A DNA stretch of 32,522 nucleotides from an uncultured Nocardioidaceae bacterium. GTDB lineage: Bacteria > Actinomycetota > Actinomycetes > Propionibacteriales > Nocardioidaceae. Below, piece after piece: positions 4,147-20,610 of the stretch. The translations under genes and the position numbers were made by a program. Where the stretch lies: NCBI GenBank assembly GCA_902805855.1, contig CADCUJ010000049.1, forward strand, positions 1 through 32,522, read 5' to 3'. The number at the start of each line of letters is the position of its first letter. The first letter of the stretch is position 1. The notes beneath the pieces were generated by a model. That model did not search any database. It was given only the letters and a program-made list of their open reading frames with translations, and was not told where the DNA came from.

Positions 4147-4758
4147 ATGTCCGCGAAGACGGTGCAGGTCGACCTGCCTGGCGAGATCTTCGACGTGGAG
4201 GTCAACATCCCGCTGATCCACCAGGTGGTCGTCGCCCAACAGGCAGCGGCCCGACAGGGCTCGCACGACACCCTCGGCCGCGGTGAGGTCCGCGGCGGCG
4301 GCGCCAAGCCGTACCGGCAGAAGGGCACCGGCCGCGCCCGCCAGGGCTCGATCCGGTCGCCACAGTTCTCCGGCGGTGGCATCGTGCACGGCCCCACGCC
4401 GCGCAGCTATGCCCAGCGGACCCCCAAGAAGATGAAGGCCGCCGCCCTGCGCGGCGCCCTCTCGGACCGGGCCCGTGCGGGACGCATCCACGTCGTGGAA
4501 GACCTCGTGACCGGTGACCGGCCCTCGACCAAGTCGGCGCTGGCCGCCATCTCGGGGCTCAGTGACCAGGGCTCGCGCTCCCGGACGCTGGTGGTGCTCG
4601 AGCGAGGCGACGACCTGACCTGGCTGTCGCTGCGCAACGTGGACACCGTGCACCTGCTCGCCGTGGACCAGATCAACACCTACGACGTGCTGGTCTCCGA
4701 CGACCTGGTGTTCACCAAGGGCGCGTACGACACCTTCATCCAGGAGGCGACGAAGTGA
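4147..4758 (+). CDS. rplD: 50S ribosomal protein L4
   Basis: L4 is an early 50S assembly protein whose long loop lines the peptide exit tunnel. In enterobacteria it also represses the S10 operon. The 203-aa product shows the tunnel-loop signature [29 protein letters not shown] and the following [22 protein letters not shown]. The start ATG 4147 follows AGAGGAGG at 4132-4139. Its stop overlaps the rplW start by 4 nt (GTGA), indicating coupled translation. No sign of truncation. Confidence 0.97.
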
Positions 4759-5057
4759 GCACCTTCCACAAGGACCACCGCGACGTGCTGATCGCTCCCG
4801 TCGTGAGCGAGAAGAGCTACGGCCTGCTGGACGCGAACAAGTACACCTTCCTGGTGCACCCCGGTGCCAACAAGACCGAGATCAAGATCGCGGTCGAGAA
4901 GGTGTTCAACGTCAAGGTCACCTCGGTCAACACCCTGAACCGCCCGGGCAAGACCCGCCGGACGCGCTTCGGGATGGGCAAGCGACCCGACACCAAGCGG
5001 GCGGTTGTCAGCCTGGCCGAGGGACAGCGGATCGACATCTTCGGCTCGGTCGGCTGA
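4755..5057 (+). CDS. rplW: 50S ribosomal protein L23
   Basis: L23 lies at the tunnel exit and is the docking site for signal recognition particle and trigger factor. The 100-aa product has [21 protein letters not shown] near the start, then [21 protein letters not shown] and [24 protein letters not shown]. It starts at GTG 4755, overlapping the rplD stop by 4 nt, behind a perfect AGGAGG at 4742-4747. A 53-nt gap follows before rplB. Confidence 0.97.
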
Positions 5058-19893: not shown

Positions 19894-20610
19894 ATGCCTA
19901 CCCCGAAGAAGGGTCCGCGCCTCGGCGGTGGTCCCGCGCACCAAAAGCACATCATCTCGAACCTGGCGACCAGCCTGTTCGAGCATGGTGCGATCACCAC
20001 CACCGAGGCGAAGGCACGAGTGCTGCGCCCGGTGGCCGAGCGGCTGATCACCAAGGCCAAGCGCGGTGACCTGCACGCCCGCCGCCAGGTGCTGACCACG
20101 ATCCGTGACAAGGGTGTCGTGCACGTCCTCTTCGAGGAGATCGCGCCTCGGTTCGCGGAGCGTCCCGGCGGCTACACGAGGATCACCAAGCTCGGCCCAC
20201 GCAAGGGCGACAACGCTCCGATGGCGGTGATCGAGCTCCTGACCGAGGAGTACACCCCGGGCGCTCGGCGCGCGCAGGACTCCCGCACCACAGAGCGCAC
20301 GCCAACCGAGCCGGCTGCACCGGCGCCCGCGGTGGAGCCGGCGGACGCCCCCACCATCGTCGCGTCCGAAGGGGCCGACGAGGAGGCCTTCGAAGAGACC
20401 GAGGGCGGGGTCACGGGCAAGTACCCCGGGTCGCACGCGCCGATGGAGACCGTGGACGACGCGCCGGAGGGCTACCCGGTCAAGGGCAACGAGGACTCGA
20501 TGAAGTACCACACTCCGGACGGGCAGTGGTACAACCAGACCGTTGCCGAGGTCTGGTTCGAGTCCGAGGAGGCCGCTGAGGCCGCTGGGTTCACCAAGGC
20601 CGGCGAGTAG
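19894..20610 (+). CDS. rplQ: 50S ribosomal protein L17 with C-terminal sunset-like domain
   Basis: L17 lies at the base of the 50S subunit near the tunnel exit. Residues 1-121 are a standard L17: [40 protein letters not shown], and [13 protein letters not shown]. The protein is 238 aa, roughly twice the usual 115-130 aa. Residues 122-176 are an Ala/Pro/Glu-rich linker. Residues 177-234 form a small conserved-looking domain with [23 protein letters not shown], and [20 protein letters not shown]. This resembles what I recall as the actinobacterial 'sunset' domain also seen in an ArfC-like protein; its role is unknown to me. The 95-nt gap after rpoA has no strong signal. truA follows 16 nt later. 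Confidence 0.95.

Follow-up and report, generated by a model that had tools for sequence, protein, structure and literature searches.

A sunset domain on ribosomal protein L17 of a Nocardioidaceae bacterium, with probable remote kinship to the Ada zinc-binding domain

Background

Extra folded domains are seldom taken on by ribosomal proteins. Curated NCBIfam models nevertheless describe sunset-domain variants of the ribosomal proteins L17 (NF051448), L4 (NF051449), L20 (NF051450) and S2 (NF051451), as well as of ArfC (NF051433). A search of the open-access literature retrieved no paper describing the sunset domain. The second system of relevance is the Ada zinc-binding domain (PF02805), which carries four cysteine zinc ligands, one of them being the methyl acceptor. 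Here, an L17 gene of an uncultured Nocardioidaceae bacterium is compared to both. It lies in a stretch of 32,522 nucleotides (contig CADCUJ010000049.1), the whole of which is called the window below.

Architecture of the L17 gene

The rplQ reading frame at 19894-20610 (+) starts with ATG, encodes 238 aa and ends with TAG. Residues 21-115 match Pfam Ribosomal_L17 (PF01196) with 136 bits (cut-off 27), and the protein also exceeds the cut-off of TIGR00059 (131 bits vs 70), indicating a true bL17 core (residues 1-118, 19894-20247). This core is followed by a poorly conserved, Ala/Pro/Glu-rich linker (residues 119-179, 20248-20430), with disorder predicted for 121-170, and by an extended sunset domain (residues 180-238, 20431-20607), predicted to fold into three strands, one helix and a short final strand, of which our own profile covers 180-236. 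Within it, the NCBIfam sunset model NF051437 matches residues 196-237 (20479-20604) with 81 bits (cut-off 27). The full-length model NF051448 (50S_L17_sunset) aligns residues 1-237 to profile positions 1-229 with 341 bits (cut-off 280). Judged by these matches, the window L17 is a further member of a curated NCBIfam kind, and its form was already known.

A sequence-only reading of the window had proposed an L17 fused to a sunset domain, which the NF051448 and NF051437 scores bear out. The motif it quoted, GNxDSxxYHxPxxxxYxxTxAEVWF...AAGF, is present in the tail, and a profile search of the tail matches the sunset model, while Pfam holds no family for this part and matches the L17 core only. 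Its span of 20422-20597 was nearly right; the conserved unit starts around residue 180 (20431) and runs to near the end of the protein (residue 236-237). The size, given as twice the usual one, holds against E. coli-like L17. Within the window's order, most L17s without a sunset already exceed the E. coli form in length, their open frames measuring for the most part about 165-235 aa with some pre-start residues counted in.

Based on a full-length AlphaFold2 prediction, core and sunset are confidently modelled and the linker is not. The core has a pLDDT of at least 87 in every ten-residue block except the first (74). The linker drops to 40-54 per block at 121-170 and reaches 72 at 171-180, after which the sunset rises from 82 at 181-190 to 91-95 from residue 191 on. 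The isolated 69-residue sunset piece was predicted with a mean pLDDT of 83.

The window's genome, 97.9% complete, yielded one sunset. The rplD gene (L4) of the same operon, at 4168-4788 (+), has none, its NF051449 match being confined to the L4 part (profile 1-204 of 285). Rfam at gathering scores gave no match anywhere in the window.

Conservation of the domain and its linker

Conservation was measured on the 63 distinct members of a set of 77 L17-sunset genes in which the start was recognised and only one sunset is present. Over all 1953 pairs, the mean pairwise identity is 0.77 for the core, 0.38 for the linker and 0.71 for the domain (about 45 residues). Among close relatives (370 pairs with a core identity of at least 0.9), the domain, at 0.84, stays behind the core, at 0.95. 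The difference between domain and linker argues that the L17 tail is read in frame and is under selection. On these identities, the L17 sunset is a real, selected domain which, unlike the linker, is nearly as conserved as the core. Across 70 sequences from many hosts, K28, N30, S33, H37, T47 and E50 of the sunset piece are at least 90% constant.

Ratios of dN/dS (medians of 0.38 for the core, 0.91 for the linker and 0.50 for the domain) were discarded in favour of the identities, because so high a core value is not plausible for L17 and hints at saturation of the G+C-rich third codon positions.

Hosts of the sunset domain

Besides the proteins named by NCBIfam, the sunset was found on uL22, uS3, bS16, uS17, NusA, ATP synthase gamma, NuoE, NuoJ and GlgB. 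L17, L4 and S2 hosts were assigned by phmmer and the others by motif or model; the additional hosts other than NuoJ come from 79 loci in named genomes, kept of 535 confirmed, and from part of the matches in an inventory of 21 of these genomes. All nine match their ordinary family models together with parts of sunset models, and their model-match tables hold no sunset model named for them. By motif, uL22-sunset has 14 distinct instances and bS16-sunset five, two of each being model-checked. For uS3, uS17, NusA and GlgB, one each was seen by model match. ATP synthase gamma carries the domain in two genomes, NuoE in two and NuoJ in one (G391, of the window's family). A single Ilumatobacter genome has it on uL4, uL22, uS3 and NusA. 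Taken together, the ribosomal hosts amount to at least eight different proteins, seven observed here and L20 from NCBIfam.

Several individual hosts are of interest in their own right. In complex I, a C-terminal sunset is found on NuoE of Knoellia remsis (L354) and Knoellia sinensis (L387) and on NuoJ at L324 (G391). The F1 ATP synthase gamma of G479 (L399) and G471 (L401) has its sunset at the C-terminus. The C-terminus of this subunit lies in the rotor shaft, which makes this host an odd one. GlgB, the 1,4-alpha-glucan branching enzyme, with a C-terminal sunset in a Propionibacteriaceae MAG (L279), is the sole soluble metabolic enzyme among the identified hosts. Of the nine sunset domains in the genome of Knoellia sinensis (G485), three lie in a single membrane protein of ArfC type (L384), which also has the ArfC N-terminus.

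As the sequence-only reading stated, the same domain occurs on an ArfC variant: NF051433 describes one, and the ArfC N-terminal model NF051455 is found on the triple-sunset protein. The window protein itself is not of this type. It reaches 70.4 bits against NF051433, below the cut-off of 100 and over linker and domain only, and NF051455, i.e. the N-terminal membrane segment of ArfC, is absent from its matches. The emphasis of the earlier reading on the tunnel exit finds no support, with uS2, uS3, bS16, uS17, NusA, ATP synthase gamma, NuoE, NuoJ and GlgB all among the hosts. A domain carried by proteins of both ribosomal subunits, by NusA, by subunits of complex I and ATP synthase and by membrane proteins is unlikely to act locally at the tunnel exit. 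Its suggestion of a common partner or ligand for ribosomal and envelope sunsets is possible.

In 247 of the 253 distinct instances at L001-L330, the sunset ends within 40 residues of the C-terminus; repeats were removed from this survey only if their last 80 residues were identical, and the ATP synthase and NuoE hosts were left out. The uS17 of L243 (2975-3652 (+)) goes against this usual placement, with its sunset at the N-terminus, and N-terminal or internal sunsets also occur at L397, L398 and L402, the last without a Pfam match. C-terminal placement is therefore not required. Sunset host assemblies are abundant and long-lived. Together with the mostly C-terminal position, this would fit a tail that marks assemblies for a protease, a storage factor or a hibernation factor, a role in turnover or dormancy that we hold highly improbable.

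Another reading starts from the membrane hosts. A ribosomal sunset might directly meet a membrane sunset (ArfC-type, LGFP-type or DUF5324-like) and so tether ribosomes to the membrane. Both kinds do occur together in some genomes (G402, G370 and G412). Of the 72 Cys-poor instances on non-ribosomal proteins, Lys/Arg counts put the C-terminus inside in 30, including most LGFP-like ones (one checked as LGFP), but outside in 27, with nine ties and six proteins without a predicted membrane segment. Moreover, in family f5, the loci read from the 19 genomes listed include no L17, L4 or S2, and genomes with a single sunset exist, namely the window's, G026, G126, G219 and G279. Given such genomes, bridging of one host to a different one by contact of their sunsets is unlikely to be the general role, and in the window's genome a bridge of this kind has no second half. 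Direct tethering is therefore regarded as improbable.

Beyond these hosts, exported-looking sunsets were observed on lipoprotein-like, membrane and SNase-type proteins of IMG/VR viral contigs (L181-L201); many have a Cys pair, and some SNase forms have none. The sunset also extends beyond actinobacteria, as the control genome of Bacillus subtilis contains a match that exceeds the cut-off. No match was found in phage records and two in plasmid records. In the plasmid collection, an annotated rplQ of Tsukamurella tyrosinosolvens (NZ_LR134464.1, 210485-210598) matches the sunset over 64% of the query; this record is perhaps a misfiled piece of chromosome.

Distribution and movement

In a survey of the class, 50 of 296 genomes carry a sunset, with 69 matches in total, 25 of which are on L17 (9), L4 (14) or S2 (2). 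Within the window's order (147 genomes), L17-sunset is found in 44 genomes, L4-sunset in 42 and S2-sunset in six; 83 have at least one of these, six have both L17 and L4, and none of the 147 carries L20-sunset. The L17 count includes G402, scored with neighbours, and G355, which has an in-frame stop. The L4 count is 46 over the cut-off minus G202, G409, G185 and G413, where only the L4 part matched, and takes in decayed copies and G321 (scored with neighbours). The families differ widely: L17-sunset is present in 33 of 38 genomes of f47 and in one of eight of f48, the 49 genomes of f2 carry the domain on L17 in six and on L4 in 19, and the 52 genomes of the window's own family (f1) carry it on L17 in four, L4 in 23 and S2 in six. 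The ribosomal fusion is hence not clade-wide, as had been thought conceivable, either in the order or in the family.

On a tree of rpoA and the L17 core, at least 12 changes of the L17 trait are needed, nine of them forced by well supported (starred) branches, gains and losses not being separated. The tree was made with a quick method, has many unresolved forks and contains 91 of 92 chosen rows, i.e. 31 of the 44 carriers and 60 of the 103 non-carriers; G402 was dropped because its rpoA is cut, and G355 (L077) is treated as a carrier. Even L17s with identical cores differ in the presence of the sunset. In one such pair (L094/L462), the two sequences can still be aligned on either side of the missing sunset, at the start and the last residues of the tail and in the DNA downstream; in another (L071/L421), the greater part of the tail is different. 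In G355 (L077 / L308), an in-frame TAA precedes an intact-looking sunset in the L17 gene, likely a recent loss. By reading, five L4 copies (L059, L063, L066, L068 and L069) miss most of the sunset motif. Absent and decayed copies, the stop in G355 and identical cores that differ indicate that the sunset is dispensable.

The similarity between copies points in two directions. G287, G393 and G405, all of the window's family, have L17, L4 and S2 sunsets that are each closest to those on the same host elsewhere. In G412 and G370, by contrast, L4 copies resemble the L17 sunset slightly more (0.85) than other L17 copies do (0.83 and 0.81). In this comparison, repeat fetches of the same gene (L131, L105, L296, L329, L305 and L328) were skipped and the next best copy was used. 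The L4 and L22 sunsets of an Acidimicrobiales genome share 91% of their DNA, as do the two copies of a tandem sunset in one L17; in a single Ilumatobacter genome, what uL22 and uS3 have in common includes a stretch of linker. Copying between L4 and L22 within the Acidimicrobiales genome appears likely from this DNA identity; at the protein level, S2 sunsets from elsewhere match its L22 sunset (at L213) as closely (0.91) as the L4 sunset of the same genome does. Long residence on one host and copying between hosts thus both seem to occur.

These observations lend weight to a reading in which the sunset is a passenger. It would cap a disordered tail with a stable, soluble and acidic unit, would spread by copying of 3' coding segments, and would be kept only for being harmless or for mildly aiding the solubility and spacing of crowded complexes, without a specific partner. 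The hosts are scattered across unrelated positions and machines, the domain is acidic, and it is frequently changed, absent or decayed. Nor was there support for L17 carriers being replaced by L4 carriers, in a weak test of nine independent pairs (median p 0.63) where L4, on average, went the same way as L17 in 2.5, the opposite way in 0.8 and showed no difference in 5.7. However, the identity of the domain compared to that of the linker and the six nearly constant residues go beyond what bulk solubility needs. We consider such a passenger a serious candidate, if a rather unlikely one.

Probable kinship with the Ada zinc-binding domain

Profile comparison points to the Ada domain by way of 12 Ada-like domains of the phylum. 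With hhalign, the sunset aligned to these with a probability of 92.2% (score 42.0) for a Cys-poor set and of 95.8% (score 49.8) for a Cys-pair set. These sets were split by the number of cysteines only and contain, after thinning, 80 of 269 and 18 of 27 sequences, the Cys-poor set including some exported forms. In 100 column shuffles per set, the score reached at most 9.0 and the probability at most 0.18% and 0.42%, and L17-core controls gave 0.03-0.04%. The Ada-like domains in turn align to full Ada at 99.0%, whereas the sunset sets do so directly only weakly (31.6% and 10.0%). Pfam PF02805 did not match the window protein at E-values up to 1, below its gathering cut-off, and the best relative tried (L200) reached 16.1 bits against a cut-off of 23. 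Three of the 12 Ada-like domains (L342, L348 and L352) read G(N/S).NS.V(Y/F)H.PSC...GY.PC..C. The window sunset reads GN.DS..YH.P...AGF..A, the cysteines being gone. As the motif G(N/S).NS.V(Y/F)H.P is common to these three Ada-like domains, the conserved sunset residues may be structural only.

The predicted fold may agree, if faintly. Among 22 chains compared to the predicted sunset, a Z of at least 2 was obtained for N-Ada entries alone (1u8b, 1zgw and 1wpk), the three values being 4.0, 3.5 and 3.1; the best alignment covers 55 residues at an rmsd of 3.4, and a Z of this size may reflect a common arrangement alone. Foldseek hits with the predicted sunset were weak (E 1.1 to 9.2).

The window domain contains no cysteine and therefore no zinc site of the Ada kind, and the same zero count holds for all 158 instances on ribosomal proteins, NusA, GlgB or NuoJ. 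On hosts that were not identified, 23 of 95 instances have at least two cysteines. A strict rule by which inside forms are Cys-free and exported forms carry a Cys pair was rejected, given the Cys-free SNase-type forms (L187, L189 and L198) and the 27 Cys-poor non-ribosomal instances scored with the C-terminus outside. Based on the profile alignments, the sunset does not belong to the Ada domain family itself but is probably a distant relative, by descent; we infer that this descent would have involved the loss of all zinc ligands.

Kinship with Ada might suggest nucleic acids as a ligand. In such a reading, the sunset would bind RNA or DNA, as N-Ada and perhaps the nuclease-linked exported forms do; around the ribosome and NusA, mRNA and nascent transcripts would be examples. 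The exported forms on SNase and GmrSD_C nucleases and the several RNA-binding hosts would agree with this, as do the profile kinship with Ada-like domains and the weak fold kinship with N-Ada. The charge does not: the mean net charge is -4.3 in the 158 sunsets on ribosomal proteins, NusA, GlgB or NuoJ and +6.4 in 23 Ada-type domains, which favours a protein over a nucleic-acid partner. Acidity and the respiratory hosts together make nucleic-acid binding less likely; NuoE, NuoJ, ATP synthase gamma and GlgB are all among the hosts, and the Cys-based zinc site is missing. We judge this role quite improbable.

Position on the ribosome and proposed role

Searching PDB sequences with the sunset alone (E up to 10) gave one match, residues 241-290 of 301 of ribosomal L4 in 8crx (chain e), which we take to be the C. 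acnes ribosome. The best-matching bL17 chains, presumably of mycobacterial and E. coli origin, match the window L17 over residues 1-171 at most. According to the article on the C. acnes ribosome (PMC10085706), the C-terminal extension of uL4 is 100 residues longer than in E. coli, solvent exposed, without density and likely disordered. The sunset is thus not docked there, at least.

We tentatively prefer, with a confidence somewhat short of even, the reading that the sunset on L17 is a tethered, acidic protein-binding module. The L17 core would sit in the 50S subunit as usual, with an acidic tether of roughly 50-60 residues holding the folded sunset in the solvent. Instead of docking at a fixed place on the ribosome, the sunset would work as a 'fishing rod', capturing a common cytosolic partner or other sunset-bearing assemblies. 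Such capture might localise, cluster or regulate the machine that bears the sunset. Which subunit carries it would matter little, selection acting on the machine having one, and perhaps only weakly or under some conditions.

A broader version extends this to all hosts. In this view, a zinc-free branch of Ada would serve Actinomycetota generally as an internal 'machine tag'. It would be passed in evolution, as a terminal cassette, among subunits of the ribosome, NusA, complex I and ATP synthase and membrane proteins, so that one cytosolic receptor could gather or regulate these assemblies together. In this general form, the proposal is unlikely.

What is new here is the probable kinship to Ada without zinc ligands, the extra hosts, the order-wide distribution with its changes on the tree and the conservation of the L17 domain compared to its linker. 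The same domain sits on at least eight ribosomal proteins plus other large machines. If there is one receptor, this would point to an unrecognised mode of organising ribosomes and respiratory complexes in actinobacteria, for which the kinship to Ada offers a concrete structural starting point; if there is none, it would be a clean case of a near-neutral tail domain spreading across essential genes.

Comparison with known systems

The closest described system is the L17 variant of NF051448, which has the same full architecture as the window L17; no difference was found, and the model description names no function. With the variants of L4, L20, S2 and ArfC (NF051449, NF051450, NF051451 and NF051433), the window L17 shares the domain, the host proteins being different. 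The bL17 proteins of solved ribosomes share the L17 core and in some chains have a longer tail, but the match of the best L17 chains stops short of the sunset. Exported sunset proteins (SNase and GmrSD_C, and by eye lipoprotein- or SLH-like), judged to be exported from their signal or membrane segments, carry a related domain, with Cys-poor and Cys-pair sets aligning at a probability of 99.4% in hhalign; the window form has no cysteine. Finally, in the alignment with the Ada domain (PF02805), YH.P of the sunset lies on YC.P.C and the F.....A..AG(F/Y) segment is shared, while the sunset of the window is Cys-free and acidic.
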